Shown: positions 7,185 through 43,635 of the stretch, in pieces | How the letters are laid out: every line of letters starts with the position of its first letter | Numbering within the stretch: the first letter of the stretch is position 1 | NCBI RefSeq assembly: GCF_041435195.1 | Contig: NZ_CP108108.1 | Coordinates: forward strand, 1 to 49,574 | Reading direction: 5' to 3' | Source of the DNA: Streptomyces sp. NBC_00224 | GTDB lineage: Bacteria > Actinomycetota > Actinomycetes > Streptomycetales > Streptomycetaceae | DNA length: 49,574 nucleotides | Made by a program: the position numbers and the translations under genes | Notes under the pieces: generated by a model | What the model was told of the DNA's origin: nothing | What the model saw: only the letters and a program-made list of their open reading frames with translations | The model's database searches: none

Positions 7185-7200
7185 TGGGCGGGGCTGCTCG

Positions 7201-7220: not shown

Positions 7221-7285
7221 GGGCTGAGTAGGAACTTCCCAGCTCACCCGGTCACTGGTTCACCTCCGCCGAACGCTGCGGAGAG

Positions 7286-9013: not shown

Positions 9014-9103
9014 TCCCGACTGCCATGCAGTGCGGCATGGACGTGGGCCCTCTCGGGCCACCGCATGCCCTGTTGTGGACACTGAACAGTTAAGGACTCG
9101 CCG

Positions 9104-9820: not shown

Positions 9821-9871
9821 CCGTGCCCCGTCCCGCTGCATCTCACCACCGCACAGACTGAGGAACCCGCG

Positions 9872-11044
9872 ATGAGCACACACGACGCCCCCACGACAGC
9901 CCTGCCCGGCCTGGGCCGGCCGCGTTTCGTCGACATCCACATCCTGCAGACCCTGCCCTTCAGCAACGTCAACCGCGACGACCTCGGCTCACCCAAAACG
10001 GTCACCTTCGGCGGCACCACCCGCACCCGCGTCTCCAGCCAGGCGTGGAAGCGCCCCACCCGGCTGGCCGTGGAAGCACAGATCGGGCATCAGGCGCAGC
10101 GCACCCGGCGCCTGCCCGTGCAGATCGCCAAGATCCTCACAGCGCGGCAGTGGCCCACCGACCTCGCCGAGCTCGCCGGCGCCCAGATCATCCGCTCCAC
10201 CGACTCCAAACTCGGCCTGGACAACGGCGACCGGACCACCACATCCCTGCTCTTCCTGCCCGACACCGCCGCCGAGATCCTGGCCGGCATCGCCGAAAAG
10301 CACCGTGATCAGCTGGAAGCGGCCCTGGGAACCAAAGCGGCAGCCAAGCCCCTGCTCCCCAAGGACGACATCCACGAGGTCCTGCGCTCCCGCAACGGCT
10401 CGATCGCCCTCTTCGGCCGCATGCTCGCCGAAATCCCCGGCGCGGGCGTCGACGGAGCCGTCCAAGTCGCCCACGCCTTCACCACCCACAGCACCTCGGT
10501 CCAGGCCGACTTCTTCACCGCCGTCGACGACATCGACCAATGGGCCACCGACGCGGGCAGCGCCCACATGAACACCAGCGAATACAGCAGCGGTGTCTTC
10601 TACCGCTACGCCACCCTCGACCTCGACGACCTCACGCGCAATCTCGCCGACGCCGCTCTGGCCCGCACCCTGGCCACCGCCTTCGTCCATGCCTTCATCC
10701 ACAGCATGCCCAGCGCGAAGAAGACCTCCACCGCCCCGCACAGCATCCCCGACCTCGTCCACCTCGCCGTGCGCACGGACCGGCCCGTCTCACTGGCCTC
10801 GGCGTTCGAAAAGCCAGTCCAGGCCACTCGGGAAGGCTGGGGCCAGCCCTCCCGCGACGCCCTTGCCACCTACGCCAGCCGTCTGACACAGCTACTGGGA
10901 ACGACCGCCGTGGCTCACCACGCCCACGCAGGCATCAACGAGGATCCACTGACAGGACTGGGCACTCACGTGCAGTCCTACACCGAACTCGTCGACCAGG
11001 CCCTCGACGCCGCCTACGCCACCAGCGAAGACACGGCCTCATGA
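9872..11044 (+). CDS. cas7e: Cascade backbone subunit Cas7e (Cse4/CasC)
   Basis: 390 aa. Six copies of Cas7 normally form the filament that holds the crRNA guide. The N-terminus carries the family hallmark FVDIHILQTLPFSNVNRDD followed by TRVSSQAWKRPTRL. The middle contains the AEFFTAVDD-type segment (VQADFFTAVDDI) and NTSEYSSGVFYRYATLDLDDL, and the C-terminal part has SAKKTSTAPHSIPDLVHLAV, all characteristic of CasC. Its TGA overlaps the ATG of cas5 (ATGA), implying translational coupling. The preceding gap to cse2 is 51 nt. Confidence 0.96.
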   Translation: MSTHDAPTTALPGLGRPRFVDIHILQTLPFSNVNRDDLGSPKTVTFGGTTRTRVSSQAWKRPTRLAVEAQIGHQAQRTRRLPVQIAKILTARQWPTDLAELAGAQIIRSTDSKLGLDNGDRTTTSLLFLPDTAAEILAGIAEKHRDQLEAALGTKAAAKPLLPKDDIHEVLRSRNGSIALFGRMLAEIPGAGVDGAVQVAHAFTTHSTSVQADFFTAVDDIDQWATDAGSAHMNTSEYSSGVFYRYATLDLDDLTRNLADAALARTLATAFVHAFIHSMPSAKKTSTAPHSIPDLVHLAVRTDRPVSLASAFEKPVQATREGWGQPSRDALATYASRLTQLLGTTAVAHHAHAGINEDPLTGLGTHVQSYTELVDQALDAAYATSEDTAS

Positions 11045-11922
11045 GCGGGTTCCTGCTGCAACTGGGCGGCCCCCTGCAGGCATGGGGGGAACACAGCGCC
11101 TTCACCGACCGCGACACCGTCTCCCACCCCACCCGGTCCGGACTCATCGGCATGATCGCATCCGCCCTCGGCATCCCCCGCGCCCATGCCGTCGCCGATA
11201 CCCCAGCAGACAGCCAACTGCCCATCGCCTTCACCCGGCTGAGCCATCTGCGCTTCGTGGTGCGCTGCGACCGCCCCGGAACCCGCCTGCGCGACTTCCA
11301 CACCGTCGGAGGCGGCTACCCCGTCCACCGCACCGTCCCCACTGCCAAAGGCACCCGCAGGGCAGCCGCATTCGCCACCATCGTCTCCCAGCGCACCTAC
11401 CTGGCCGACGCCGTCTTCACCATCGCTGTCACCGCCCCAGGCGACCCGGACCTCGCCGCTGCCTGCGCCCGCGCGCTGAGCGCCCCGCACTGGCCACTCC
11501 ACCTCGGCCGCCGCTCCTGCCCGCCCAACCCCCAGCTGCTCCTGCGCAGCGACGTCCCCGACCCCGTCACCGAGTTGACCAAGGTGCCGCTGGCCCGCCC
11601 CGCCCCCGACGCCCGCCACGACACCACCGCCGGCCCCCCGCAAGGTCCTGCCACCGTCTCCGTACGGTTCACGGCAGACACCCCCCTGCCCCCCGGCCTC
11701 GCCCCCACCCTCACCACCAGATCGTCCACCACCACCCTCAACGACGATCCCGTACGCCTTCGCGTACACGACCGCGTCTACCGCAGCAGGCCCGCCTACT
11801 CTGCCCACTACCCTCTGCCCGCCACCTTGTGCCAGGGCTACGGCCTGGACTACCTCCAGGCCCTCATCACCTACCTGCACCCCGGCAACTCACCCGCACC
11901 GCACGAAACGAGCACCCCATGA
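11041..11922 (+). CDS. cas5e: Cascade subunit Cas5e (CasD)
   Basis: 293 aa. Cas5e caps the 5' handle of the crRNA and contacts Cse1. The N-terminus GFLLQLGGPLQAWGEHSAF and the following TRSGLIGMIASALGI are the RAMP-type signature of the family, with RLRDFHTVGGGYP further on. The C-terminal third (about 195-240) holds a Pro-rich stretch that is probably a lineage-specific loop before YRSRPAYSAHYP. The chosen start is the ATG overlapping the cas7 stop; a longer open frame upstream overlaps cas7 and is an artefact. The gene ends ATGA with cas6e. Confidence 0.95.
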   Translation: MSGFLLQLGGPLQAWGEHSAFTDRDTVSHPTRSGLIGMIASALGIPRAHAVADTPADSQLPIAFTRLSHLRFVVRCDRPGTRLRDFHTVGGGYPVHRTVPTAKGTRRAAAFATIVSQRTYLADAVFTIAVTAPGDPDLAAACARALSAPHWPLHLGRRSCPPNPQLLLRSDVPDPVTELTKVPLARPAPDARHDTTAGPPQGPATVSVRFTADTPLPPGLAPTLTTRSSTTTLNDDPVRLRVHDRVYRSRPAYSAHYPLPATLCQGYGLDYLQALITYLHPGNSPAPHETSTP

Positions 11923-12656
11923 CACCCACAGCACCCCCCGCCACCACCCAGGCCTGGCTCACCCACATCAGCCTCAACCCCGCCAGCCGCGCCGTCCAGT
12001 ACGACCTCGCGCACGCGGACGCGCTGCATCGCCGGGTCATGACGCTGCTGCCGCACCACCTCGGCGCCAGCCCGCGTGCCCACGCAGGGCTCCTCTTCCG
12101 CCTCGACACCGACGCCGCCCCCACCCTCCTCGTCCAAAGCCGCATCGCCCCCGACGCCAGCCGACTCCCGCACGGCTACGGACACACCCAAGTCCGCGAA
12201 ATGCACGCCCTCTTCAGCGCCCTGCGCCCCGGCCTGAGCGTCTGCTACCGCATCCTGGGCAACACCGTGCGCCGATGCGGCCGCAACAGCACCGCAGGCC
12301 GTTTCAAGCAAGCCATCGCCCTCCACGGCGACGACGCAGCCCAGTGGTGGAGCGAACGCGCCACCGCCGCCGGACTCACCCTGAACACCCTCCTCGCCGA
12401 ACCCGCCGAAACCCTCACCACCCGCCACCCCCAGAACACCACCCCCCACCCCAGCCGGCCGACAGCCCCGCTCCCCGCCACCACCGCACCACCACCCCAC
12501 AAGGTGGTGGTACCCCATCAGGCCACCCTCTTCCAGGGCACAGCCACCATCCACGACCCCCAAACGGCCCAGGAAGCCCTGCTGCACGGCATCGGCCGCA
12601 GCAAGTCCTACGGATGCGGACTCCTCAGCCTCGCCCCCCACCACCCTCACGGATGA
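11919..12656 (+). CDS. cas6e: CRISPR RNA endoribonuclease Cas6e (CasE)
   Basis: 245 aa. Cas6e cuts pre-crRNA at the base of the repeat hairpin and stays bound to the 3' handle. The sequence begins with a RAMP strand (WLTHISLNPASRAVQYDLAHADALHRRVM), where a conserved His in the family takes part in cleavage. It ends with the glycine-rich loop HGIGRSKSYGCGLLSLAP that identifies Cas6e. A low-complexity Pro/Thr linker lies at about 165-195. ATGA overlaps with cas5 upstream and cas1 downstream indicate one transcript. The palindromic repeat in all arrays fits its substrate preference. Confidence 0.94.
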   Translation: MTPTAPPATTQAWLTHISLNPASRAVQYDLAHADALHRRVMTLLPHHLGASPRAHAGLLFRLDTDAAPTLLVQSRIAPDASRLPHGYGHTQVREMHALFSALRPGLSVCYRILGNTVRRCGRNSTAGRFKQAIALHGDDAAQWWSERATAAGLTLNTLLAEPAETLTTRHPQNTTPHPSRPTAPLPATTAPPPHKVVVPHQATLFQGTATIHDPQTAQEALLHGIGRSKSYGCGLLSLAPHHPHG

Positions 12657-13730
12657 CACCGCACACCATGGCCAATTCCAACCCGCCACACGACCACACA
12701 ACGGCACGCCGCCGCATCGCCGCACCCACCCTCGCCATGCTGCCCCGCGTCGGCGACTCCCTCTCCTTTCTGTACGCGGACGTGGTCCGCATCGTCCAGG
12801 ACGACACCGGCGTCTGCGCCGAAACCACCACCGTGGAAGGCGAGACCACCCGCGTCTATCTGCCCACCGCAGCACTCTCCTGTGTACTCCTGGGTCCCGG
12901 AACCTCCATCACCCAGCCAGCACTGGCAACCTTCGCCCGCCACGGCACCACCGTGGTCTGCAGCGGTTCCGGCGGCGTCCGCTGCTACTCCACCACCACC
13001 TCCGACGCCCTCACCACCCGCTGGGCTCGAACACCAAGTCCACCAATGGTCCGATCCCGAACGCCGTCTGGACGTCGCCCGGAACATGTACCTCAAACGA
13101 TTCGACACCCCCGTCCCCGCCTCCACGCCCCTCAACACACTCCGCGGCCTGGAAGGACAGCGCGTCAAGACCCTCTACCGCCTCCTCGCCCAGCAGCACC
13201 GCATCGGCCGCTTCCGCCGCAACTACGACCCCGCCGCCTGGGACGACCAGGACCCCGTCAACCTGGCCCTGTCCTCCGCCAACACCTGCCTGTACGGCAT
13301 CGTGCACGCAGCCCTCGTCGCCCTCGGATGCTCACCCGCCCTCGGCTTCGTCCACCAAGGCAAGCAGCACGCCCTGGTGTACGACATCGCTGACCTGTAC
13401 AAAGCAGAACTCACCATCCCGCTCGCCTTCTCGCTGCATGACTCGCCCCACCCCGAAGCCATGGCCCGACGCAGCTTCCGCGAAGGACTGCGCCTGTACA
13501 AACTCCTGCCGAGAATCGTCGCCGACGTACAGTCACTCCTCGCTCCCGATGAAAGCCGCCCCGTCCCGGACGGCCACGAAGTTGACCTTGTCAATCTCTG
13601 GGATCCGGAAGCCGGTTCAGTTCCTGCAGGAGTCAACTATGCAAGGACCGCAGACGCATCGTTTGTTGCGTCTCCTGAACCCCCAGGAGCGTCGAACGAG
13701 CCGGACAGGCCGACAGGGGGATCACTGTGA
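12653..13730 (+). pseudogene. cas1: Integrase Cas1 (type I-E), split by a +1 frameshift
   Basis: Cas1 with Cas2 inserts new spacers. Translation starts at 12653 (ATGA overlap with cas6e) and gives a normal Cas1 N-terminus (RVGDSLSFLYADVVRI, FARHGTTVVCSGSGGVRCYS) up to TTRW. The conserved continuation (LEHQVHQWSDPERRLDVARN) lies in the next frame; the run GGG at 13023-13025 should be GG. All catalytic residues are downstream in the second frame: Glu of LEGQRVKTLY, His of GFVHQGKQH and Asp of VYDIADLYK. Read as is, the protein terminates out of frame at 13393 with unrelated residues. It is either a true inactivating insertion or a sequencing error; everything else is conserved, so the lesion is recent. 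Confidence 0.9.
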
Positions 13731-13791
13731 GTCCCGGTAGCTGGGCATCGGCAACAGCCCAACCTGTCCTGAGAGGGAAGGCGGCTGGACA

Positions 13792-14106
13792 GTGCCGAAC
13801 CTGACAGTCCTGTCCGCCACGGCGGTCCCCGACCATGTGCGCGGCGCGCTGACCCGTTGGATGATCGAACCCGCTCCAGGGCTCTATGTCGGAACGCTCT
13901 CCGCACGTGTGCGTGACGAGCTCTGGCGGGTCGTCAGCGCCTCCATCGGTGACGGAGCCGCTGTACTTGTTCATCCAGAGGCCAACGAGCAGGGGTTCAC
14001 GGTGCAGACAGCCGGCGAACGGCGCCGCGTCCCTGTAGATCTTGACGGACTCACACTGATCGCGTTCCGCCCGGAGGAGTGTCAAGAAATAGCAAACCGA
14101 GGGTAG
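13792..14106 (+). CDS. cas2: CRISPR-associated endoribonuclease-fold protein Cas2 (type I-E)
   Basis: 104 aa. Cas2 is the central dimer of the Cas1-Cas2 integration complex. The N-terminus LTVLSATAVPDHVRGALTRW and the motif GLYVGTLSARVRDELW are typical of Cas2e. The GTG start at 13792 has GAGAGGGA upstream. Unlike many I-E loci, where cas1 and cas2 overlap, 61 nt separate the two here. The last 28 nt of the coding region also form the left part of the array 4 leader. The gene is intact although its partner cas1 is frameshifted. Confidence 0.93.
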   Translation: MPNLTVLSATAVPDHVRGALTRWMIEPAPGLYVGTLSARVRDELWRVVSASIGDGAAVLVHPEANEQGFTVQTAGERRRVPVDLDGLTLIAFRPEECQEIANRG

Positions 14107-14124
14107 AAGCCCAGGTCGGCAAGG
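14079..14124 (+). promoter_or_regulatory. CRISPR leader of array 4, overlapping the end of cas2
   Basis: It contains GTCAAGAAATAGCAAACCG and CCAGGTCGGCAAGG adjoining the first repeat, matching the leaders of arrays 2 and 3. It starts within the last codons of cas2. Confidence 0.7.
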
Positions 14125-14458
14125 GTGGTCCCCGCGCAGGCGGGGGTGAACCGCAGCGTCACCGCGGCTCACCTCCCTTGGTGTCGTGGTCCCCGCGCAG
14201 GCGGGGGTGAACCGCACGGTCCGCACTACACGCGCAGCTCGACCGGGTGGTCCCCGCGCAGGCGGGGGTGAACCGCACTACATGGACGTGCTGGCCGACC
14301 TGGACCGGTGGTCCCCGCGCAGGCGGGGGTGAACCGGTGCGTTCGGACACGAACACGGGGTGGGAGTCGTGGTCCCCGCGCAGGCGGGGGTGAACCGTCG
14401 GCCTGTTCTCCGTGGGCCTGCGTGTGCGCGTGGTCCCCGCGCAGGCGGGGGTGAACCG
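14125..14458 (+). CRISPR. Type I-E CRISPR array 4 (6 repeats)
   Basis: Repeats of the GTGGTCCCC type begin at 14125, 14186, 14247, 14308, 14369 and 14430. All are perfect and every spacer is 32 nt. No decayed trailer copy follows, so the array may have been cut short; an in-register relic lies at 15881-15957. The orientation is the same as the cas operon and the leader is at 14079-14124. Confidence 0.97.
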
Positions 14459-32103: not shown

Positions 32104-33543
32104 TCAGGCGCGGGTGAACCAGCGGGCCTGCTCTGCGTCGGTGACGGTGTGGCGCTGGTGGTCGATCTCGATTTGCGCCAGCTGCGCGTAGTGCTCCACC
32201 ACCTCCTCGCCGAACGCCTCCCGGGTGATGGGGCTGTGGCGGAACGCGGAGCGCGCCTGCTCGAACGTGAGCGGCACCAGCGGTGCCTGGGAGGCTTCGA
32301 AGGCGTTGGAGACACACTGCCGGGGCGGGACGAGGTCGTGGCTGATCCCATGGACGATGCCGGCCACAGCGGCGGACAGCGCCAGATAGGGATTCGCGTC
32401 CGCCCCGCCCAGGCGCACCTCCAGGTGGAGCCCGTCGCTGTGTCCGACGATGCGCACCGCGCAGGTGCGGTTGTCGAACCCCCAGGCCATCCGGGTCGGG
32501 GCGAACGCCTCGCCCAGGTACCGCTTGTAGGAGTTCACGTTCGGCGCATAGAACGGGGCAAGCCCCGGCAGGGCCTCCAGCAGACCCGCCGCCGCGCTCT
32601 TGCCGATCGTTGAGAGTTCGCCGTCGGGGGTGGGGAGTATGGGGGTGCCGTTGCGGGTGAGGGACCGGTGGAGGTGCAGGCCGCTGCCGATGCCGGTCTC
32701 GGGCGCGGCCATGAACGTCGCCGTCATCCCCGCGCGGTCGGCCAGCGTGCGCGCGGCGTGCTTGAAGACGAGATGCTGATCGCAGGCGCTGAGCGCGCCG
32801 CTGTGGGGGAAGGTGACCTCGACCTGGCCGGGGGCGCTTTCGGTCTTGATGGCCTCCACCGGCATCCCCGCCTTCGCCAATGCGGTTTGGAGGCGGCGGA
32901 AGTAGCGGTCGAGACCAGGGGTGTGGTCGAGGGCGTAGTCCAGATTCACGTCCGCTGCCGGAACGAGTCCGCCGGGCCCGATGCCGGTGGTGGGGGTGTA
33001 GGTGCCTTGGTAGAGCAGGAACTCGGTCTCCAGGCCGACCTGGGCGTGCAGGCCGTGTGCGGCGAGCCGGGTGAGCTGGGTGCGCAGGACCTGCCGGGGA
33101 GCAACTTCGACCGGGGCGTCTGCTGCGTCTACCGCGTCTCCGAGGACGAGCACGGTGCGCGGCATCCAGGGCACGAGACGCAGGGTTGCGAGGTCCGGGA
33201 CGACACCGGTGTCCTCGAAGCCGCTGTCCCACGAGGTGAGGTCGAAGCCGTGGCGCGGACTCATCTCGACATCGGTGGCCAGCAGGTAGGCGCACATGTC
33301 CGCGCCGTCGAGTGCGACCTTGTCCAGGAAGTGCCGGGCCCCGTACCGCTTGCCCTTCAACTGCCCTTGCGAGTTCGGCAACGCGTAGAAAACGGTGTCG
33401 ATCAATTCGGCATCCACTGCATCCCGCAGATCGGGCAGTGTCAGCTTCCCGATGACCGCGCGCTTCCGCCGCGCACGAGCGGTATCAGCGGACGGGGCAC
33501 TCAGACGGGGAACCTGTGAGAACGAGCGCGGAGTCGTGGGCAT
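32104..33543 (-). CDS. Glutamine-synthetase-like ligase (gamma-glutamyl-amine synthetase type)
   Basis: 479 aa. ATP-dependent GS-fold enzyme joining glutamate to ammonia or an amine. Motifs: metal site VGLETEFLLYQ, SAPGQVEVTFPHSGAL, nucleotide/His loop GSGLHLHRSLT, VNSYKRYLGEAFAPTRMAWG and LEVRLGGADANPYLALSAAV. Length and motifs fit the PuuA/GlnA3-like group rather than the main glutamine synthetase; the adenylylation loop is not evident. The ATG at 33543 overlaps the permease stop as TGATG, so uptake and ligation are coupled. Either polyamine/amine catabolism or amide formation on a product is possible. Confidence 0.88.
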   Translation of the reverse strand: MPTTPRSFSQVPRLSAPSADTARARRKRAVIGKLTLPDLRDAVDAELIDTVFYALPNSQGQLKGKRYGARHFLDKVALDGADMCAYLLATDVEMSPRHGFDLTSWDSGFEDTGVVPDLATLRLVPWMPRTVLVLGDAVDAADAPVEVAPRQVLRTQLTRLAAHGLHAQVGLETEFLLYQGTYTPTTGIGPGGLVPAADVNLDYALDHTPGLDRYFRRLQTALAKAGMPVEAIKTESAPGQVEVTFPHSGALSACDQHLVFKHAARTLADRAGMTATFMAAPETGIGSGLHLHRSLTRNGTPILPTPDGELSTIGKSAAAGLLEALPGLAPFYAPNVNSYKRYLGEAFAPTRMAWGFDNRTCAVRIVGHSDGLHLEVRLGGADANPYLALSAAVAGIVHGISHDLVPPRQCVSNAFEASQAPLVPLTFEQARSAFRHSPITREAFGEEVVEHYAQLAQIEIDHQRHTVTDAEQARWFTRA

Positions 33544-35069
33544 CAGACGATCTCCTGCTGGATCTTGGACAGTTCCTTGTCGGCGGCGACGGCCGGCACC
33601 TTGTAGTGGCGTCCGGCGATGCGCCACCACGCGGCGGCCAGCAGTAGGGCGGCGGCGAGGGCGATGGGGGCGTAGTTGAAGGTGTCCACCGTGACGAGCC
33701 CGCCGGTCGCGGGCTTCGATTGCGGCAGGCAGAACAACACCGTGACGACAGCGACCCACGCGACGGCGATGGTGCCGATGGGAATGCTCCAGCGGCCCAG
33801 GTTCCACGGGCCCGGGGTGAAGCGGTCGCGATGGCGGATCCGCAAGTAGATGGGAATCGCGTACGCCGGGGTGATCCCGATGACGTTGATTGCGACGACC
33901 GCCCCGAACGCGGTCGGACTGTAGAGCGAGGGCAGCGCCAGGACGGCGGCGACCGTGACCGACAGCCACACGGCTGCCCGTGGGGTGCGGCTGGCGTTGT
34001 CGGTACGCGTCCACCACTTCTGCCCGGGTAGGGCGCCGTCGCGGGAGAACGCGAACACCATCCGCGAACACGCCGCGGTCTCTGCATTCCCGCAGAACAA
34101 CTGGGCGACAATCACGATCAGCAGCAGCGCCTTCGCGCCGCCGATGCCGAGCGCGTCGATGAAGATCTGCGCCGGGGGGACTCCGGTGCTGGTGTTCTGT
34201 GTGCCGGTGTAGTCCTGGATGGCGAACGTGAGCCCGACCAGCAGCACGAGACCGGCACCCCAGGACCAGACGATGGACCGCACGATGCCGCGCGGAGCCG
34301 CGATGGAGGCGTGGGTGGTCTCCTCCGACAGATGCGCCGAGGCGTCGTAGCCGGAGAATGTGTACTGCGCGACCAGCAGACCGATCGCCACCACATACAG
34401 ACTGCTGGACCAGCCGGTGCCATTGACGAACCTCGTGAACACGAAATCAGCGGACTGATGATGGGCGGGGACGATCGTGAGGGCGCCGACGATGACGGCC
34501 ACACCGACCAGGTGCCACCACACGCTCACCGCGTTTAACACGGCGACCAGGCGGACCCCGAACAGGTTCAGCACAGCGTGCAGGATCAGGACGCCGAAGA
34601 AGATCCACAGGGTCTTGCCGGGAGTGGGCTGGAAGCCGTACTGGAGGTCGAGGAAAGCGCCGGTGAACTGGGCGCACCCGTAGTCGATGCTGGCGATCCC
34701 GCCCAATAACCCGAGCAGGTTGAGCCAGCCCGTGTACCAGCCCCAGCGGCGTCCGCCGAGGCGGTCAGCCATGAAGAACAGGGCACCGCTGGTGGGGTAG
34801 GCGCTGGTGACCTCCGCCAGCGCCGCGCCGACGAACAGCACCATGCCGCCTACGACGATCCAGCCCCAGATCATCACCGAGGGGCCGCCGGTGGAGAGGC
34901 CGTAGCCGTACATGGTCATGCAGCCGGTGAGCACGCTGATCACGGAGAACGAGACGGCCGCGTTGCCGAACGCGCCCATCCGCCGGAACAACTGAGGCTT
35001 GTAGCCCAGGTCCCGCAGGTGTTCATCGTCGGCGTGCACACCGGGAGGTTGTTGATGTGTATATGACAT
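33543..35069 (-). CDS. Amino-acid/amine permease (APC superfamily)
   Basis: 508 aa with about 12 hydrophobic helices. The cytoplasmic N-terminus and first helix (FGNAAVSFSVISVLTGCMTM), and the loop GYDASAHLSEETTHASIAAP after helix 6, are hallmarks of the GABA/amino-acid permease branch (Uga4/Bat1-like). Proton-driven import is expected. The start at 35069 precedes HADDEHLRDLGYKPQLFRRM, the usual cytoplasmic leader. It is directly coupled to the glutamine-synthetase-like gene, suggesting that the transported amine is that enzyme's substrate. Confidence 0.92.
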   Translation of the reverse strand: MSYTHQQPPGVHADDEHLRDLGYKPQLFRRMGAFGNAAVSFSVISVLTGCMTMYGYGLSTGGPSVMIWGWIVVGGMVLFVGAALAEVTSAYPTSGALFFMADRLGGRRWGWYTGWLNLLGLLGGIASIDYGCAQFTGAFLDLQYGFQPTPGKTLWIFFGVLILHAVLNLFGVRLVAVLNAVSVWWHLVGVAVIVGALTIVPAHHQSADFVFTRFVNGTGWSSSLYVVAIGLLVAQYTFSGYDASAHLSEETTHASIAAPRGIVRSIVWSWGAGLVLLVGLTFAIQDYTGTQNTSTGVPPAQIFIDALGIGGAKALLLIVIVAQLFCGNAETAACSRMVFAFSRDGALPGQKWWTRTDNASRTPRAAVWLSVTVAAVLALPSLYSPTAFGAVVAINVIGITPAYAIPIYLRIRHRDRFTPGPWNLGRWSIPIGTIAVAWVAVVTVLFCLPQSKPATGGLVTVDTFNYAPIALAAALLLAAAWWRIAGRHYKVPAVAADKELSKIQQEIV

Positions 35070-35108: not shown

Positions 35109-36164
35109 TCAGATGGGGCGGAGGCGGTGCTTCGGAGGGGCGGCTGTGCGGGTGCGGGTGGTGGTCAGGCATTGGGCGCGGGCGCGGACAAACTCCCGCA
35201 CCGCCGACTCCGGACGGTCCGGATCGTCACAGACGTACGCCCACGGCAGCCGGGTGGCATACCGGTCGAGCGCCCGGAACGCCTTGGCCGCATCCGCGTA
35301 CTGATGCCCCGCCCACAGCGCGTGCGCCAGATAGTTGAGATCCACCACCGACGTCGAAGGAGCGGGCTCTTCATTCCAGCGGTAGAAGGCGCGCCGCACA
35401 TATTGGTTCACCGGCTCACGCGACCACTGGCGGTGCTGCAACGCATCCGCCGTCCCGTCCTTCCGGTGGCGCCAATAGCTCTCCATGTAGGCATACAGCG
35501 GCAGCATCCGCAGCGGCGAACCCGCAGGCTCCCTCGACACCGTCCACTGCGCAAAGTTGATCGCATCCGCCACCGACGTATGACGGCAGGCGTAGAAGAA
35601 CTGCATCATCCGGTGGAACGCCTCCCGGTTACCTCCCGGATCCCGCTCCTCCACCCGCGCCAGCAGCCCCCACGGCCCAGCCGGAAGCATCTCCTCCCAC
35701 GCCACACGCCAATGCTCCGAATACCGCAGACCCGTATCCGCCTGGGCCAATGCAAGCAACGCCACCCACGGCACCGGATCCGCAGGCACTCGACGCACCG
35801 CGACCAGACACGCATGCCGCGCCGCCTGCTCCAAAACGGGCGCCTTCGCGTCTCCGCCGCGATGAGCCTGCAATGCCCGCACCACCGCAACTCGGCCACG
35901 CATCACCAACGCATCCGCGCTGTCCGGCTCTTCCGCCCCCCACGCCTCGACGGCATCCGTACGGGCCGCGGTCGCCGCCAGCACCTGCATCCGTGACGTC
36001 CGCAATGCCCAGTCGCCCCCGGTCCGCGCGAGCAGATCCCGCACTGCTAGCCAGCGCCCCATTTGGAGATCCGCGAGCACGGCCCGCAGTTCTTGGTCGA
36101 AGCCCGCCGGGTGATAGACCGGGGTGAAGTCTTGCAGGCCCGTAGGCTCGCTGCGGTTTCGCAT
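35109..36164 (-). CDS. TPR-like helical-repeat protein of unknown function
   Basis: 351 aa, all helical, with repeated Ala/Leu/Trp patterns (GRWLAVRDLLARTGGDWALR, RMQVLAATAARTDAVEAWG, WVALLALAQADTGLRYSEHW, DAAKAFRALDRYATRL) resembling degenerate TPR or HEAT helices. No catalytic motif, signal or membrane segment. The ATG at 36164 overlaps the preceding acetyltransferase stop as TGATG. Proteins of this look occur beside Streptomyces peptide or natural-product clusters; its role could be as a scaffold. Not recognised by name. Confidence 0.65.
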   Translation of the reverse strand: MRNRSEPTGLQDFTPVYHPAGFDQELRAVLADLQMGRWLAVRDLLARTGGDWALRTSRMQVLAATAARTDAVEAWGAEEPDSADALVMRGRVAVVRALQAHRGGDAKAPVLEQAARHACLVAVRRVPADPVPWVALLALAQADTGLRYSEHWRVAWEEMLPAGPWGLLARVEERDPGGNREAFHRMMQFFYACRHTSVADAINFAQWTVSREPAGSPLRMLPLYAYMESYWRHRKDGTADALQHRQWSREPVNQYVRRAFYRWNEEPAPSTSVVDLNYLAHALWAGHQYADAAKAFRALDRYATRLPWAYVCDDPDRPESAVREFVRARAQCLTTTRTRTAAPPKHRLRPI

Positions 36165-36835
36165 CACCTCACCCCGCCAGAGTGGCCGTAAGGCACGTCC
36201 GAAGAGAAGTGCGTGATGCAGCGGGACAGACCGTTGATCTCTACTTGTGTTGTGCGTGAGTGATCGCGCCACCGGGCGGCACCGATGACGTCCTCGTGGG
36301 TGTCATACGAGCGGCCGTCAACCGCGATGCGGTGGATGCCATTGGGCTGGTAGCCGAACTTGCGAGAGATGGCTCGGGAGGCGGCGTTGTCAGTGAACGC
36401 GGTGGAAGTGACGCGGGAGGCTTCGAGGCCGTCGAAGGCAAGGGTGAGGGCGGCGGCGCGCATCTGCGTGCCGTAGCCCTGCCCTTGGAACCGGCGGCTG
36501 AGCCAGAAGCCGGTGCGGGCTTCACCAGTGGTGGCGAAGTTGCGGGCAGAAAGGTTCTGCTGGCCGATGACCTGGTCGTTTCGGAAGACGGCCAGGAGCA
36601 GGCGCCAGTTGTCCTGTGTCCAGTCCCCTCTTGCCCACCAGTGGTTCTGGACGACGTTGCGGGCGCGTTCGGCCGGTGGGGCGGTGGCCCAGGGCTGCGG
36701 GAAGTAGACGGCGCCGTCCGGGACGACGCCGTCCGCCGTGACCTGGGCAAGGGCGTCGAGTTCGGAGTCTGAGGGAAGACGCAGGACGAGGTCGGGCGTG
36801 GTGAGTGTGAGAGCAGTGAGGGGCCAGTGGTGCAC
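36164..36835 (-). CDS. GNAT-family N-acetyltransferase
   Basis: 223 aa. The acetyl-CoA loop is seen as RRFQGQGYGTQMRAAAL (Q/RxxGxG/A) following EARTGFWLSRRF, and the C-terminal SRAISRKFGYQPNGIHRIAV is typical of the RimJ/RimL branch, which often acetylates N-termini or small amines. The start GTG at 36835 gives VHHWPLTALTL, the natural first strand; the longer frame upstream is Ser/Pro/Thr-rich shadow of the next gene. Coupled to the TPR-like gene by TGATG and 16 nt after the VOC gene. Confidence 0.87.
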   Translation of the reverse strand: MHHWPLTALTLTTPDLVLRLPSDSELDALAQVTADGVVPDGAVYFPQPWATAPPAERARNVVQNHWWARGDWTQDNWRLLLAVFRNDQVIGQQNLSARNFATTGEARTGFWLSRRFQGQGYGTQMRAAALTLAFDGLEASRVTSTAFTDNAASRAISRKFGYQPNGIHRIAVDGRSYDTHEDVIGAARWRDHSRTTQVEINGLSRCITHFSSDVPYGHSGGVR

Positions 36836-36851: not shown

Positions 36852-37205
36852 TCAGGGCCCGTCGAGTCCGAAGACGGTTCCGAAGGGGTCGACGAGTTGG
36901 CAGATACGTCGGCCGGGCTCGACGTCGAGGGGGCCGCGGTGGTGGGTGCAGCCGGCGTCGAGGAGACGCTGGCGGTCGGTGTCCAGGTTTTCAACTGACC
37001 AGTAAGGGACGGTGCTTCGTCCGTAGACGTTCGCCTTGGGGGAGGCGGGGTGGAAGCCGAATTCGAGTCCGTTGAGGTCGAGCCAGGCGTAGACGGAGGT
37101 GCCGTTGACGTCGAGCTCGACCTCGGAGTCGAAGATCTCGCCCCACCAGCGGGCGGCGGCTTCGGGGTCGTCGACGAAGACCATGACGGTGCGGATACCG
37201 TGCAC
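36852..37205 (-). CDS. VOC/glyoxalase-like protein
   Basis: 117 aa. Two beta-alpha-beta-beta-beta units of the vicinal-oxygen-chelate fold: HGIRTVMVFVDDPEAAARWW and YWSVENLDTDRQRLLDAGCT, with ending VDPFGTVFGL. Possible metal ligands are the His near the start, Glu in LNGLEFGFH and a late acidic residue. Proteins of this size may be lyases, dioxygenases or binding proteins; no reaction can be assigned. The GTG start at 37205 has AAGGAG 9 nt upstream. Confidence 0.85.
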   Translation of the reverse strand: MHGIRTVMVFVDDPEAAARWWGEIFDSEVELDVNGTSVYAWLDLNGLEFGFHPASPKANVYGRSTVPYWSVENLDTDRQRLLDAGCTHHRGPLDVEPGRRICQLVDPFGTVFGLDGP

Positions 37206-37252
37206 TTGGGATTCTCCTTGGTTTGGGGAGTGGCACGGTACCGCCGTGGCGA

Positions 37253-38122
37253 TTACTCGTGGACGCCGTGCAGGGAATGGAGGCCGGTCGCGGCGGCGAA
37301 CGCCGTCAACGCGCGTGTCAGGCTCTGGTCGTTCCACTGAGCGCCGAGGTCCCGCACGTGGTGCAGGTAGGCCTGGCGTACCCAGCGCGGGGATCGGCAG
37401 CCCTGGCCGCGTGCGATGTAGGCGAGTGTGATCAGGTCGGGCAGGCCGGTGATGTCGGGACGCAGGGTTTCGGCATCGACCAGAGCCAGGTGCCCTTTGC
37501 CACGGCGCCGGACGTGATCCGGTTTGAGGTCCAGATGACCGAGCGGCACGTGTTCGGGGCCGTGGGCGTCGGTGACCAGTTGCAGGAGCCGGTGCCAGTC
37601 GTCAGGACGGGTGATCCACCCCGGGGGTGGGGCGTTGACGGCCTTCCCGGCCTGCCAGCGGGCCATGGCTTCGGTCATGGTGGGGTGCCAGCGGGCAGAG
37701 GAGGTGTGGATGACCGCGACCGCACGTACCAGCTCGCAGAAGGCATCAGTGGCGGCCAGGGCGACGGCCTGGTCGAGGTAATCGACCAGCAGCGTCTGCG
37801 ACGTGTCGCAGGCCCGGTAGAGGTGCGGCAGAACGCATTCGTCGGCTAGGAGTTCGTAGGCGAGGACTTCGCCGAAATAACCGGCTTGGTCCGCGTGCCG
37901 CTTCAAGACCCGGTCGGGAGGATCGCCGAGGGCGAAGGCGGCTGTCCGGTAGCGGGCGGTGAGGCACCGCACCGGCCCCGGCGGGCTGCTGTAGCGGCGG
38001 GCCAGGATCACGTGTGCCTGCCGCTCGGCGGTGGCGGGGTCGGTGGCCAGAGGGTTGGGTAGCCAGCCCTGCGGCCGTGCCTTGGCGGCGCCGTCCAGCG
38101 GCCCGGCGTGGGCGGTGGTCAC
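37253..38122 (-). CDS. Phosphotransferase-fold protein in the peptide cluster
   Basis: 289 aa. The C-terminal lobe shows LGHLDLKPDHVRRRGKGHLA (catalytic Asp; the usual Asn is replaced by His) and LALVDAETLRPDITGLPDL (metal Asp), as in APH-type kinases. The N-terminal lobe has ALGDPPDRVLKRHADQAGYF with a likely ATP-binding Lys. The GTG at 38122 overlaps the stop of the MBL gene (GTGA), so the two are made together. A kinase acting on a peptide or small substrate is possible; the changed Asn leaves activity open. Confidence 0.75.
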   Translation of the reverse strand: MTTAHAGPLDGAAKARPQGWLPNPLATDPATAERQAHVILARRYSSPPGPVRCLTARYRTAAFALGDPPDRVLKRHADQAGYFGEVLAYELLADECVLPHLYRACDTSQTLLVDYLDQAVALAATDAFCELVRAVAVIHTSSARWHPTMTEAMARWQAGKAVNAPPPGWITRPDDWHRLLQLVTDAHGPEHVPLGHLDLKPDHVRRRGKGHLALVDAETLRPDITGLPDLITLAYIARGQGCRSPRWVRQAYLHHVRDLGAQWNDQSLTRALTAFAAATGLHSLHGVHE

Positions 38123-39618
38123 GCTGATATCTCCTGATGGATGCCGAGCGTGGCCAGGCTGCGGGCGTAGCAGCGGGCGGCCAGGTCGGGTCGCTGGTGC
38201 TCGCCGTAGATCGCGAAGAGGGCATAGACAGGGGAGTCGAGGTGCTCACCGATGTGCCATCCCTGGTACGAGCCCCCGACGATATCCCAGATCTGGGCAC
38301 GTCCCAAGAACACGGCAGCGAGGTCCTGGAAGTAGATCTCGATACCGAAGGGGTAGGCGGCCATGGCCTCCTCCCGGTTGGTTGTCTCCACCTTGTCCCA
38401 GTGGGGACCGGTGATGTTCCAGGCGTAGGAGTCGACTTCGTCAGGTCGCCCGGGTGGGTCGAGCAGACGGAGAACAGCACGGTGAGCCTGGAGAGGCCCG
38501 CGAAGGTAGTCGTGGATGCTGGTGGCCAGGGCTCCCGTGCGCGTGGCGATCAACTCACGTGCCAGCCGGGGAAGTTCCTGCGCCACGAGATGTTCGGCCT
38601 TCCCCCACTCCTCCTTGTCCAGGCTCGGAGTGACCGGGGTGGGCTCGACGCGCTGTGGGGCGTCCAGGAAGGCCGACAGCGCGGCTAGTTCCGACTTCTC
38701 CGCCACGGGGTCAGGGGTGACCCAGAGCGCGCGCGAGACGGTGATGGAGCCGCCGCCCGCCGGGACGGTCAGGCGGTCGCCTGGACGGGGGCCATGGACG
38801 TGAAAGAGGTGCTGGAGGTCGTTGGCGGCGGCGGCCAGAGCCTTGTGATCGGCATAGAGGAAGGGGCCGTGAGGGCTGCGCGGTGCGGTGAAGCCGTTGC
38901 CGCACAGGGCGACGTCCCGCACCCCGTCGAGAGGCTTGAGGTAGTCGATGAGCAGGGCGTGCAGGATCTGGAGCCCAGTGGTGCGGTTGCGAGGGCCGTC
39001 CAGGCCGGGTAGAAGATTGTTGTCCGCGCCAAGGGCACCGTACGGGACGGTCTGGGCGTTGTTGGAGACGACGGCGAGACGTGGCGGGGCGAGGGTGCCC
39101 TGGGCCAGTTGCTCGATGTACAGGTCGGAGACGTCGGCGTCGACGCCGATGAAGACGTCGTTGCCGGTGGTTCCCGAGAGCCGGACCAGCGGCTGGGCCA
39201 CGCGCTTCTCCCAGAAGAGAGTGTGAGCGCCGGCGGGGTAGAGGGTGATCTCGATGTCCCCGATGTCCAGCGGCTGGGTGTGGTCGACGCGGTGCACGGT
39301 CAAGCCCAGGGCTTCGATGGCGTCGGTGACCGCGGCGGGGGTGGAGATGCCGGTATAGATAGGGACCGTGCGCGGGAGGAGGCTGAGGGAGGGGAGGTGG
39401 AAGTGGTCCAGGTGCTCGTGGCTGAGGATCACGGCGTTGGGAGCGGGCATACCCTGCACGTCCACGCTACGGGGCGGCCAGATCTTGAACTCCAGGCTCC
39501 CGGCTCCGAAGGCGGGCGCAAGGATTGGATCGAGGAGGACCGAGGAGAGGCCGTCGCTGATGTGCCACGTCTGGTGACCGAGGAAGGTCAGTTCCAGGCC
39601 GACGGGAGTGGCTGTCAT
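38119..39618 (-). CDS. Metallo-beta-lactamase-fold hydrolase/oxidoreductase
   Basis: 499 aa, about twice a simple MBL domain. The N-terminal 250 residues show LTFLGHQTWHISDGLSSVLL and the metal motif ILSHEHLDHFHLPSL (HxHxDH), then a further ligand region around AGAHTLFWEK and IGVDADVSD, similar to the UlaG/Neu5Ac-hydroxylase-like branch. The C-terminal half is unrecognised (GPHWDKVETTNREEAMAAYP, IWDIVGGSYQGWHIGEHL). ATG 39618 has AAGGAG upstream. It follows a 44-codon peptide gene by 94 nt and overlaps the kinase-like gene. Confidence 0.82.
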   Translation of the reverse strand: MTATPVGLELTFLGHQTWHISDGLSSVLLDPILAPAFGAGSLEFKIWPPRSVDVQGMPAPNAVILSHEHLDHFHLPSLSLLPRTVPIYTGISTPAAVTDAIEALGLTVHRVDHTQPLDIGDIEITLYPAGAHTLFWEKRVAQPLVRLSGTTGNDVFIGVDADVSDLYIEQLAQGTLAPPRLAVVSNNAQTVPYGALGADNNLLPGLDGPRNRTTGLQILHALLIDYLKPLDGVRDVALCGNGFTAPRSPHGPFLYADHKALAAAANDLQHLFHVHGPRPGDRLTVPAGGGSITVSRALWVTPDPVAEKSELAALSAFLDAPQRVEPTPVTPSLDKEEWGKAEHLVAQELPRLARELIATRTGALATSIHDYLRGPLQAHRAVLRLLDPPGRPDEVDSYAWNITGPHWDKVETTNREEAMAAYPFGIEIYFQDLAAVFLGRAQIWDIVGGSYQGWHIGEHLDSPVYALFAIYGEHQRPDLAARCYARSLATLGIHQEISA

Positions 39619-39712
39619 GTCGAACTCCTTTGCACGGGCGGAGAAGGTATGAGGTGATGCGGAGGGGGACACAGCAAGATCCCCCTCCGCGGCGGACTGT
39701 GAACAGGCCGGA

Positions 39713-39847
39713 CTACCGGTGGTAGGTGACCGGGGAGTTGCTGGTGGTGCCGGTAGCAGCGAACGCCGTCACGCGCTTCTGCAGTCGGCGGACCGCCTCG
39801 GCCGTCACCGGCGCCGTGGGCTTGGCCTGGGACTTCGCCTGTTTCAT
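39713..39847 (-). CDS. 44-aa peptide, candidate precursor at the head of the cluster
   Basis: ATG at 39847 with GAGAGGGG 8 nt upstream, TAG at 39713. The N-terminal half is basic and probably helical (TAEAVRRLQKRVTAFAATG); the tail is TTSNSPVTYHR, rich in Ser/Thr. No Cys, no signal peptide. It is the first gene of the minus-strand run and precedes the MBL-fold enzyme by 94 nt, while an XRE-TPR regulator is transcribed away from it 175 nt upstream. It is either a RiPP precursor (leader helix plus Ser/Thr core) or a signalling peptide for the regulator. Base composition and start site support a real gene despite its size. Confidence 0.6.
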   Translation of the reverse strand: MKQAKSQAKPTAPVTAEAVRRLQKRVTAFAATGTTSNSPVTYHR

Positions 39848-40022
39848 CAGGTACCCCTCTCACTCGACGTCACAGCGGTGCGGGTGCAGCCGCTGGTTCC
39901 AGCTGCTGAGTCAACTCCGCTGACTGCAGCCCGAACAGGGCATTCCGCTGGGCAGGTTGTGGGCATCCAATAGGCAGATTCTCGGTAGGCTTTGCGCCGC
40001 CCAACTCGACCAGCGGACGGCG

Positions 40023-41336
40023 ATGATGGCGAACAAGACCCTGCAAGGCCTCAGACGTGAGCGGCGGTGGACTCAGGCGGAGACCGCGAAGCGTGTGTGC
40101 GATCAGGTCGTGGTCGAGACCGGGCGTAGCCCTGGACTGGATGCGGCCTGGATCTCCCGGTTGGAGCGCGGAGTCATCTCCTGGCCGTCTGGCGACTATA
40201 GGGCAGCCCTGTGCAAGGTGTTCCAGGTCAACTGCGAAGCACAGCTGGGGCTCTACCCAAAGGCTGTCACCGAGGGACCAGGAACAGAGGCGCAGAGCGG
40301 TACGTCCTCCGCGCAGCTAGAGCTAGAGACGCTCGAATCTGATGCTGAGCTGTCCTCCCACATGGCCAGGTTGGCCGCTATAACCAACGTCAACGCTCTC
40401 GTACTCGAGCAGCTCGACGCCGACCTGGACCGGCTAGCCCGGGACTTCGTCAGCCGCCCACTTCCTCTCCTGGTTCCGGAGATCCGCCACCTGCGTCGGG
40501 AAGTCTTCCGATTAGTCGAAGGCCGCCAATACCCGAACCAGGCCCGCCATCTCTACGTAACGGCTGGATGGCTGTGTGGCTTGGCGGCCCACGTCTCGCT
40601 CGATCTCGGCCACCAGCCGTCCGCCGCCACCCACGCGCGCACCGCGGTCCAATGCGCGGACATCGCGGAGCACCACGCGCTACGGGCTTGGGCTCGGTCG
40701 TTTCAATCACTCGCCGCCTACTGGACCGGCGACTATCGCCGAGCCGCCGACCTCGCACACTCCGGCTACCAGGACGGAAGACCTGGACCAGGCACCATCA
40801 GAGCACGATTACTGAGTCTGGAGGCCCGCGCCCTGGCAGCCTGCGGAGACTGCCGTGCTGCACTGCGCGCTCTCTCACTGGCACAGGAGGCCCGCAGTGC
40901 CGCCGACGCGGACGAACTGCCTGGGGTATTCGCTTTTCCCGAGGCCAAGCAGTGGGCTTACACCGGCACCACGTTGCTGGCCGTCGACGGCACGCAGCAG
41001 GTAAGGCGAGCGATCGCGGCCTCCAACCACGCCGTTGAGCTCTACCAAGCGGGCCTGGAAGGAGAACGGTCACCAGGGGACCTGCACGCGGCCCATCTGG
41101 ATCTCGCCACCGCCTACCTCACCGACGGAGAGATGGAAGGCGCCGCACATGAACTCGCTTCCGTCCTCGCCGCACCGAACTACACGGCCAGCATCGCGAT
41201 CAGACTGCGCAATCTGTACGCACTGATGGGCAGCGAGCCCTACCGTGACTCACGGCGGGTAGTCGATCTCCGCGAGGACATCAGGGAAGCGACCACCCGG
41301 CCCGCTCTAGCCAGCAACCCCACGGAGCCGAGATGA
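40023..41336 (+). CDS. XRE-family regulator with TPR-like sensor domain
   Basis: 437 aa. An N-terminal helix-turn-helix (LQGLRRERRWTQAETAKRVC, AWISRLERGVISWPSG) is followed by a helical-repeat domain (about 150-420; ARHLYVTAGWLCGLAAHVSL, ARSFQSLAAYWTGDYRRAAD, DLHAAHLDLATAYLTDGEME). Such regulators are common near Streptomyces specialised-metabolite genes, and TPR domains in related Gram-positive regulators bind peptides. ATG at 40023 or 40026. It diverges from the 44-aa peptide gene and overlaps the methyltransferase gene by ATGA. Confidence 0.88.
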   Translation: MMANKTLQGLRRERRWTQAETAKRVCDQVVVETGRSPGLDAAWISRLERGVISWPSGDYRAALCKVFQVNCEAQLGLYPKAVTEGPGTEAQSGTSSAQLELETLESDAELSSHMARLAAITNVNALVLEQLDADLDRLARDFVSRPLPLLVPEIRHLRREVFRLVEGRQYPNQARHLYVTAGWLCGLAAHVSLDLGHQPSAATHARTAVQCADIAEHHALRAWARSFQSLAAYWTGDYRRAADLAHSGYQDGRPGPGTIRARLLSLEARALAACGDCRAALRALSLAQEARSAADADELPGVFAFPEAKQWAYTGTTLLAVDGTQQVRRAIAASNHAVELYQAGLEGERSPGDLHAAHLDLATAYLTDGEMEGAAHELASVLAAPNYTASIAIRLRNLYALMGSEPYRDSRRVVDLREDIREATTRPALASNPTEPR

Positions 41337-42184
41337 CTGCCCGCCCGACCAACGACTCTTCGGTGACCGACCGGCACCTGCTCTCGACTCAGGCGTACGG
41401 CACCGGTCAGCATCTCGCGGCACGGCAATCTCTGTACCAGTGGCAGGCCCCGCAGCACGACCTCCCTGGCATCATCGTGAACGAACTGGCCGATGTCCGA
41501 GGACCGGTCGCGGACGTGGGCTGCGGTAATGGAAAGTTCGTGCAGCGCCTCCGCACGGAACGGCCCGACCTGACCGTCGTGCCTATGGACATTTCGCCCG
41601 GCATCCTGACTGGGATCCCGGGGGCAATTGTCGCTGATGCCCAGCAGCTCCCTCTCGCGAATGGCGCGCTGAGCGCAGCCTTGGGCATGCACATGCTCTA
41701 CCACGTCGAAGACCAGCAGCGAGCTGTCAGGGAGCTGGGTCGTGTCCTGGCCCCGGACGGCCTTGCTTTCATCTCCACCAACAGCCGCACCGACAAAGGC
41801 GAGCTGGAGAACCTGTGGCGGCGGGCTGCCGGAGACGTCCTGGGCATCCCGGAGGGCCCGGCCCGGGTGCAGCTCTCATCACGCTTCACTCTTGAAGAGG
41901 CGCCAGGTGTGCTGGGGGAGGTCTTCGCCGAGATCAGGACCATCCAGCTGCCGGGTGTGATCGACGTATCGGATGCGGCTCCGGTTGTGGCTCACCTCGC
42001 CTCCTACGAAGCCTGGGCAGGGAAGATGGGCGTTCCCTTCGCGGAGACAGTCGAGCGCGCTCGCGAGCGGGTTGAAGAAACCATCCGTGCAAAGGGAGCG
42101 TTCCGCATTACTTGCCTCGGTGGCATTCTCGTGTGCCGGAACACTGGCCTGACAACTACGCCGTCCTCGAGTGGGTTCGCGTAA
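41333..42184 (+). CDS. SAM-dependent methyltransferase
   Basis: 283 aa class I methyltransferase. Motif I VADVGCGNGKFVQRL binds SAM, VVPMDISPGIL is the acidic loop, ADAQQLPLANGALSAALGMH the post-motif region and ALGMHMLYHVEDQQRAVREL the motif typical of the ubiE-like branch. The substrate is unknown. ATGA overlap with the regulator shows co-expression; it may belong to the divergent peptide cluster as a tailoring or self-modification enzyme. Confidence 0.9.
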   Translation: MTARPTNDSSVTDRHLLSTQAYGTGQHLAARQSLYQWQAPQHDLPGIIVNELADVRGPVADVGCGNGKFVQRLRTERPDLTVVPMDISPGILTGIPGAIVADAQQLPLANGALSAALGMHMLYHVEDQQRAVRELGRVLAPDGLAFISTNSRTDKGELENLWRRAAGDVLGIPEGPARVQLSSRFTLEEAPGVLGEVFAEIRTIQLPGVIDVSDAAPVVAHLASYEAWAGKMGVPFAETVERARERVEETIRAKGAFRITCLGGILVCRNTGLTTTPSSSGFA

Positions 42185-42324
42185 GCCATGCACCCTGGCG
42201 TCGGCGCTGCCGCAGCCTCATTCAACCGTGTGCCGTCTCTCAGTGTGACTGCCAGTCGGAGCGGCGCCCAAGCCACGGTTTCGCCACTCTCCCCCGGCAG
42301 GAGCGCGGCAGCGAGGAGCCGGAC

Positions 42325-43338
42325 AACGGGGCTGAGCGGCATCGGCCTGGCCGCCGGGCCCGTGGCCGGAGGCGTCCTGGCGCAGGCGTTCGACTGGCCC
42401 GCGATCTTCCTGGTCAACGTGCCCATCGGCGTGGTCCTGCTGGTGGCCGACCGACGTGTCCTGGCCGAGTCCCGCAACCCGAACGCGCGCGCCCTCGACA
42501 TCCCCGGCACGATCCTGTCCGTCCTCGCAGTCGGCACCCTGGCCTACGCCCTGATCGAGGGCGGCTCGCGCGGCTGGACCTCACCGCTGATCCTCGGCGG
42601 CTTCACGGCGGCGGCCGTCCTGCTCGCCGCATTCGTGGCCGTCGAGCGGCGCCACCGCGCACCGATGCTGCCCCTGGGCCTGTTCGGCCGGTGGCTGTTC
42701 ACCGTGTCCAACTCCGCCATGGTCGTGGTGGGGTTCGCGCTCATGGGTTCGTCGTTCTTCTTCTCCCAGTTCTTCGTGTACGTCCAGGGCAGCTCGATCC
42801 TGCGGGCCGGACTCCAGACCCTGCCCATGACTCTCGCCATGGTCCTCATCAGCCCCTTCGCGGGCCGCCTCGCCGCCAAATACGGCTAGCGGTCCGTCGT
42901 CACCAGCGGCCTGGCCCTGGCCGGCTTTGGCCTCCTCGCACTGGGAGGAGTACACGCCGACACCGGATACGCGAACGTGTGGTGGCGGCTCGCCACCGTC
43001 GGCGTCGGCTTCGCCCTGACCATGTCCCCACTGACCGGCGCCGCCATCCAGGCAGTCGACCCACAGGAGGGCGGCCTCGCCTCCGGCATCAGCAGCACCA
43101 CCCGGCAGATCGGCGCGGTGCTCGGAGCCGTGGTCCGCACCCGGCAGTCCAGCGGCGCTCCTTCGAGACCGGCCTCGACACCGCCTTCACCGTGGCCGGA
43201 GCCGTCACCCTGGCCACCGCCGTGTGCACCGGCCTATGGCTGGTGCAGTCCCGGCCGACACCCGCACCCGCGCCGACGCCCACGCCCGTGCCTGAGCCGC
43301 AGCAGCGTCCCAACCTCAGCGCGCGGCGAACTCCGTGA
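42325..43338 (+). pseudogene. MFS drug-exporter remnant (DHA2 type)
   Basis: The region starts in the middle of a 14-helix MFS exporter (GIGLAAGPVAGGVLAQAFDW, IFLVNVPIGVVLLV) and continues to GRLAAKYG, where a TAG at 42887-42889 interrupts the frame. The same frame goes on (SVVTSGLALAGFGLLALGGV, GLASGISSTTRQIGAVLGAV) up to about 43140. There it shifts to a frame ending SFETGLDTAFTVAGAVTLAT and a Pro-rich tail at 43338. It lacks the N-terminal six helices and has an internal stop and a frameshift. It once was a multidrug or product exporter. Confidence 0.85.
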
Positions 43339-43425
43339 ACTGCCTCCAGGATATCCGCCGACAGTGCAGTGCCGACTGCGTGCCCGCCAGGCGCTCGGAG
43401 CCGCGTGGCGAGCCGGTGCGGAACT

Positions 43426-43635
43426 TCATGCAATCGCGTCGATCACCCGGCGATGATCCCGCCACCGGCCACCACGCTTCGGCGTCCGGTTCGCCAGCAA
43501 CGGCTCAATCCGCGCTTCCTTCACCAGGTCTTCGAACTGGCCTGGCTCCAGGGCGTCGGGGACGAGGACGGTTCCGGCCTCCTCCCACGCCGTACGGGCG
43601 GCCGAGTGTTCGATGACGGGCTGTCCGGTATCCAT
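43426..43635 (-). CDS. Small hypothetical protein
   Basis: 69 aa from the ATG at 43635 (CAGGAG 9-10 nt upstream). Sequence features: TAWEEAGTVLVPDALEPGQF, LVKEARIEPLLANR and a basic end GGRWRDHRRVIDAIA. It is mixed alpha/beta with no signal peptide or Cys. No family recognised. It lies alone between the broken exporter and a further small gene pair. Confidence 0.45.
   Translation of the reverse strand: MDTGQPVIEHSAARTAWEEAGTVLVPDALEPGQFEDLVKEARIEPLLANRTPKRGGRWRDHRRVIDAIA

Follow-up and report, generated by a model that had tools for sequence, protein, structure and literature searches.

A candidate RiPP-type locus pairing a short Tyr-His-tailed peptide with a metallo-β-lactamase-fold enzyme and a kinase-like protein in Streptomyces

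Classes of ribosomally synthesised and post-translationally modified peptides (RiPPs) have mostly been discovered through a known class-defining enzyme. Among the closest described systems, PqqB of the pyrroloquinoline quinone (PQQ) pathway is kin to the metallo-β-lactamases (MBLs) and has a tyrosine substrate; CmlA and FrsH, diiron β-hydroxylases, act on carrier-bound amino acids in non-ribosomal peptide synthetase pathways; and the biarylitides rely on a P450 enzyme and a five-residue precursor with Tyr and His close together at its C-terminus. Here, we analysed a 49,574-bp stretch of DNA (the window), which is the entire third contig (NZ_CP108108.1) of the 9.18-Mb genome of Streptomyces sp. 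NBC_00224. It holds a 44-codon gene followed by the genes for a constant pair of proteins, namely an MBL from an uncharacterised family and a divergent kinase-like protein of the aminoglycoside phosphotransferase (APH) fold. Judged from sequence, this is very probably a RiPP-type biosynthetic locus, a reading that is well supported as far as genetic architecture goes.

According to the excerpted text of PMC11002830, PqqB is an iron-dependent hydroxylase in PQQ formation, and thereby a precedent for such an enzyme within a RiPP pathway. Membership of the window MBL in this family was rejected: 48 members of the MBL family, compared with NCBIfam at E 0.01, gave no match to PqqB. A radical-SAM PqqE-like gene was absent from the eight neighbouring genes tested. 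Nor did these eight neighbours include a P450, in which the locus differs from the biarylitides, or a match to a HopA1-type lyase. Assignment to the class V lanthipeptides (lexapeptide with LxmK, pristinin with SprPT) was rejected on this last result and on the absence of Cys from all 22 peptides examined; where those clusters have the lyase, the present locus has an MBL. CmlA and FrsH share the MBL fold with the enzyme described here but differ in domain order, the MBL domain being N-terminal in our case (model residues 5-285 versus chain residues 249-532); one PDB title names a CmlA E377D mutant, and close to this region a Glu is invariant in the MBL family described here. Comparison with the corramycin phosphotransferase gave 16% identity, and we know of no MBL/precursor pair in that system. 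This type of locus was not found described in a literature search that had most subscription journals outside its range. In the retrievable main text of the decRiPPter paper and two RiPP recognition element-mining papers (PMC7794033, PMC7470986, PMC12710340), the word 'lactamase' is absent; one of these RiPP-mining papers uses PqqB as a marker and another has a phosphotransferase in the pristinin cluster.

A 44-residue peptide upstream of the MBL gene

The small gene (Table 1) is preceded by a ribosome-binding-site-like GAGGGG at 39854-39859, 6 bases ahead of its ATG, in line with the first-pass annotation, made from the letters alone, which had noted a tiny gene with a good ribosome site. A protein search with the peptide yielded four candidates, all of them homologues, and the three that carry a name are Streptomyces; identities were 95, 82 and 75% in end-to-end alignments and 90% in one that spans 70% of the length. 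Against six relatives, dN/dS ranged from 0.30 to 0.38. Of the 199 genomes searched, 117 had matches with E no higher than 1, all but the clear ones being weak (E 0.013 or worse); clear matches were found in three genomes beyond the window's own (E 2.5e-17, 1.3e-14 and 1.6e-6). The third of these lies in a different family and adjoins an MBL that is 68% identical to the window MBL over 463 residues. Sequence comparison thus confirms the 44-codon frame as a real gene.

Scanning a genome collection with the window MBL returned 16 loci, and a six-frame scan was made over a set of 21 long loci (L031-L046 and L060-L064; 13,565 stop codons). This set contains 18 YH[RHY]-stop endings, all of them at the precursor gene, 71-157 nt 5' of the MBL gene, and at no other site; near-duplicates among the loci (e.g., L040 and L062) mean that these 18 occurrences are not independent events. 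The three loci without this ending are L045, which holds a variant from Caenimonas, and L046 and L064, both with broken MBL genes. When the region upstream of the MBL was inspected in 23 loci, a peptide was found in 22, the exception being L046. The first-pass annotation had taken the small frame for a possible RiPP-type precursor, a reading that a lack of conservation in syntenic loci would have overturned; with the frame, or its Caenimonas counterpart, conserved in 19 of the 21 long loci, that reading is supported. L046 (S. inhibens) and L064 (a K. aureofaciens plasmid), the only two loci lacking it, are decayed copies that have lost MBL and peptide motif alike.

Within the peptide, Tyr at position -3 and His at -2 are invariant among 23 distinct sequences and Pro at -6 is retained in 22, while variability is concentrated in the extreme N-terminus and in a Ser/Thr-rich linker. 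A helix-like leader pattern, exemplified by VTAEAVRRLQKRV, is missing only from the L004 peptide among 22; the pattern was composed post hoc, with the peptide sequences already known, and composition shuffles fitted it 0.03 times on average and twice at most. The variation thus lies outside the Tyr-His end, in contrast to the variable tail that the first-pass annotation had looked for. In the MBL tree, TYHR and TYHH peptides fall mostly into separate clades, with L042 (TYHR) sitting among TYHH, and L044 and L045 form deep branches.

All 18 loci that were folded between the peptide and MBL genes have a long predicted hairpin there (z -1.9 to -5.3; 17 at -2.5 or below). Its stem sequence differs between clades, and it is present in the AT-rich chlamydial locus as well. 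The weakest hairpin is that of L042, where the stretch includes coding sequence and the MBL start is uncertain. Such a structure would hold precursor levels above enzyme levels.

Table 1 Features of the peptide locus in the window
Feature	Position	Strand	Basis
Precursor peptide gene, 44 aa, C-terminal TYHR	39713..39847	-	Frame, ribosome-binding site, homologues in related loci
Leader-helix motif, precursor residues 14-26	39770..39808	-	Pattern match in 21/22 peptides
C-terminal Tyr-His-Arg, precursor residues 42-44	39716..39724	-	Tyr and His invariant, 23/23 distinct peptides
Precursor-MBL intergenic hairpin with a stem of 12 bp	39659..39690	-	z -4.6 (window alone)
Presumed modifying enzyme of the MBL fold, 499 aa	38119..39618	-	Pfam, fold, motif
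APH-fold kinase-like protein, 289 aa	37253..38122	-	AlphaFold fold match; 21/24 loci
VOC-fold protein, frequent extra	36852..37205	-	Pfam above cut-off; 14/21 loci
GNAT acetyltransferase, occasional extra	36164..36835	-	Pfam above cut-off; 6/21 loci
NsdA-family regulator, divergent	40026..41336	+	NCBIfam NF053720, 121.3 bits (cut-off 75)
Methyltransferase 3' of regulator	41333..42184	+	4/21 loci, closest relatives only; membership doubtful

The enzyme pair and the spread of the core unit

Both enzymes had been recognised by fold in the first-pass annotation, and both assignments hold. The MBL matches Pfam Lactamase_B_2 (1.2e-8) and Lactamase_B_3 (1.3e-8) and combines the HxHxDH motif with the MBL fold. 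Its C-terminal part (residues 301-499, or shorter pieces) gave no Pfam match in the window protein and five relatives (six pieces), and the window piece had one PDB sequence match, at chance level (E 0.9); a tentative resemblance of this part to SCP2 may be noted. Three relatives of the MBL (P0106, P0116 and P0122) are named Rhizobium acaciae, Vibrio parahaemolyticus and Verminephrobacter aporrectodeae. The kinase-like protein by itself had no Pfam match, and its AlphaFold model (pLDDT 92.4) matches APH/choline-kinase folds. Asp198 and Asp216 are invariant, and Lys74 and Glu85 are conserved in at least 90% of 41 sequences, in keeping with the catalytic Asp, metal-binding Asp and Lys-Glu pair of a putative APH-like kinase. 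The two genes overlap by 4 nt, and two database proteins are MBL-kinase fusions. One clade has a further kinase-like gene after the APH-fold kinase; it lies at 11413-12255 in L063 (Pfam Pkinase 5.9e-6, below cut-off), and both L042 and L043 hold relatives.

Peptide, MBL and APH-fold kinase form a core unit found in actinobacteria, one Chlamydiales genome and one Burkholderiales genome. The Chlamydiales locus (L044) runs from the peptide (...SPFSYHY) through the MBL (37% identical) and the kinase to an ABC-transporter-like gene. The Caenimonas koreensis locus (L045) has at 6297-6458 a frame of 53 aa whose end, ...SLETAENVGGG-LTYHYQQGPN, reads as a double-glycine leader followed by a TYHY motif. 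Behind it lie genes for an HlyD-type protein, an ABC exporter with a C39 peptidase (Peptidase_C39 1.4e-32), the MBL, the kinase and a histidine phosphatase. This variant is a single locus, found during motif-directed inspection. Recurrence of the peptide beside the same MBL and kinase in distant bacteria gives it the appearance of a modified-peptide precursor.

The distribution is patchy. Among 295 Streptomyces genomes, the MBL was matched in 7 (the main type in five, a divergent subtype in two), and full-length copies lie on four linear Streptomyces/Kitasatospora plasmids, with a broken copy on a fifth. Wider sampling with the MBL profile gave single matches, each the seed or window genome itself, in the window's phylum (1/396), the phylum (1/398), order (1/300) and family (1/218) of the Caenimonas genome, and the phylum of the Chlamydiales genome (1/190); few candidates were scored per genome, so that all these counts are lower bounds. 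A phage origin was rejected, with no relative in the viral_contigs or phages collections. On one Streptomyces linear plasmid (L062:2210-4864), 4 kb from the peptide locus, an annotated alaS lies beside HAD, phosphoribosyltransferase and LOG-family genes and is possibly a resistant AlaRS copy.

The divergent subtype (genomes G233 and G328; loci L052, L053, L066 and L067) carries two MBLs in tandem, of which the second lacks the HxHxDH motif's first His, along with genes for a P-loop kinase-like protein and an MFS protein; a Stf0 sulfotransferase was confirmed in the G233 locus. Short upstream frames of 46 and 47 aa, both picked out by eye, end in KWAYTR and HHHYVR, with Tyr at -3 and no His at -2. 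BLAST of the two upstream regions against each other at 1e-3 gave no match, so that the link to the main type rests on position, leader pattern and Tyr.

Neighbouring genes and other parts of the window

Pfam cut-offs bear out the VOC and acetyltransferase identities proposed earlier for the genes that follow the kinase. Their place in the unit is that of frequent and occasional extras rather than of core members, and the run of overlapping genes in which they had been put holds for MBL and kinase, whereas the VOC gene begins ~48 nt past the kinase gene. In 6 of the 14 VOC-bearing loci this gene lies on the opposite strand; for the GNAT gene, the GTG at 36835 was picked as start by comparing relatives. 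A 'TPR-like' gene further along (35109-36170; 353 aa), likewise counted into the unit by the first-pass annotation, was dropped: tblastn at 1e-6 found relatives in none of the 21 loci, and its protein had no Pfam or NCBIfam match. The NsdA-family regulator was also present in four of four other loci tested.

Beyond the methyltransferase, positions 42188-43456 hold part of an MFS transporter (233 aa, Pfam MFS_1 at 6.3e-9, covering profile positions 103-266). More sequence of the MFS kind lies in other frames, and the peptide locus may once have had its exporter here, now decayed. On the minus strand, 32104-35069 carries what by eye is a glutamine-synthetase-like gene and an amino-acid permease, probably unrelated. 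Type I-E CRISPR-Cas genes lie at 7286-11044 (wider ~4046-14400), with Cse1 (Pfam 1.8e-63) and Cas7 (NCBIfam 4.1e-96), and repeat-like protein frames seen by eye near 13.6-14.4 kb suggest CRISPR arrays.

Proposed function and alternatives

The locus has what RiPP pathways generally have: a short precursor, genetically encoded, in which a leader-like and a core-like part can be told apart, and conserved co-encoded enzymes, here the MBL and the kinase, whose action on the peptide we infer. Taken as a whole, it is probably best explained as a RiPP locus of an undescribed class. The leader would dock the precursor on the MBL/kinase pair, and the MBL would modify the Tyr or the Tyr-His tail, perhaps by metal-dependent oxidation of the sort that PqqB, with iron, and CmlA/FrsH, with diiron sites, carry out on their respective substrates. 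The kinase could phosphorylate a core Thr, Ser or Tyr or a new hydroxyl, in the course of maturation or so that the product stays inactive before it is exported, while VOC and GNAT proteins would give self-protection and the NsdA-type regulator would control expression. That the kinase acts on the peptide or its product seems likely, and that the MBL acts on the Tyr-His tail fairly so; an oxidative action is a tentative proposal. Oxidation of the tail combined with phosphorylation is our best guess at the chemistry, and a new modification chemistry is possible. VOC and GNAT genes are reminiscent of bleomycin self-resistance and, by speculative analogy, would fit a metal-binding product.

Two points weigh against this explanation: the C-terminal tail shows a constancy that is unusual in an antibiotic, and next to the window locus neither a protease nor an intact exporter was identified. 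Neither was identified next to the annotated actinobacterial peptide genes, exporter and leader-removal genes being clear in Caenimonas only, alongside the ABC-transporter-like gene in Chlamydiales.

The most serious alternative is that the MBL is a hydrolase or peptidase that releases a C-terminal core or opens a ring, the kinase performing the main modification. We rate this as possible. The nearest solved sequence is NAPE-PLD (4.8e-8), SaxA was also matched, and RNase J and hydrolases head the fold lists; CmlA and FrsH are among the few PDB sequence matches (0.0054 and 0.0093). Fold comparison does not separate the two activities, since the MBL resembles MBL hydrolases and CmlA/FrsH oxygenases alike. 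Classical dizinc hydrolases include later His residues in their ligand sets. In contrast, no His beyond residue 74 is conserved in the present family, in invariant or 90% columns, and Glu137, which might conceivably replace a His ligand as a Glu does in CmlA-type diiron sites, is invariant in 48 of 48 members.

Alternatively, the peptide may be the precursor of a redox cofactor or metallophore of the PQQ or mycofactocin kind, with Tyr-His as the retained part; the locus would still be a RiPP locus. The invariant Tyr-His and the precedent of PqqB speak for such a product, which we nevertheless consider unlikely in view of the patchy, often plasmid-borne occurrence, of VOC and GNAT extras that resemble resistance genes, and of gene tables of the plasmid loci in which no dedicated dehydrogenase was noticed.

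It is quite improbable that the peptide serves as a small subunit or activator of an MBL/kinase pair acting on another small molecule, with neither processing nor export. Conservation across the whole peptide, beyond the leader, and the actinobacterial genes lacking an identified protease or exporter would agree with this; the double-glycine leader and C39-peptidase exporter in Caenimonas, the transporter-like gene in Chlamydiales and a hairpin after the first gene, which suits a need for surplus precursor, do not. A toxin-antitoxin or immunity unit, in which MBL and kinase neutralise a peptide toxin, would suit the patchy plasmid distribution and is hardly credible with a constant partner of 500 aa, an NsdA-family regulator in five of five tested loci, the intergenic hairpin and the Caenimonas exporter.

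Returning to the RiPP explanation, its most far-reaching form is doubtful as a whole: the MBL would act on peptides as an iron oxygenase comparable to PqqB and CmlA and, through oxidation or cross-linking, turn the invariant Tyr-His tail into a metal-binding pharmacophore; the APH-fold kinase would phosphorylate it; and VOC sequestration and GNAT acetylation would confer bleomycin-style immunity. Together with the two-MBL subtype (Tyr -3 peptide, sulfotransferase, MFS), this would make a new class of RiPPs, spread over at least three phyla and with an MBL-fold oxygenase as its defining enzyme. If the MBL does modify the Tyr-His tail, it would represent a new family of peptide-modifying enzymes, and the MBL family together with a small open reading frame ending in Tyr-His-x would offer a search handle in Actinomycetota, Chlamydiota and Pseudomonadota.
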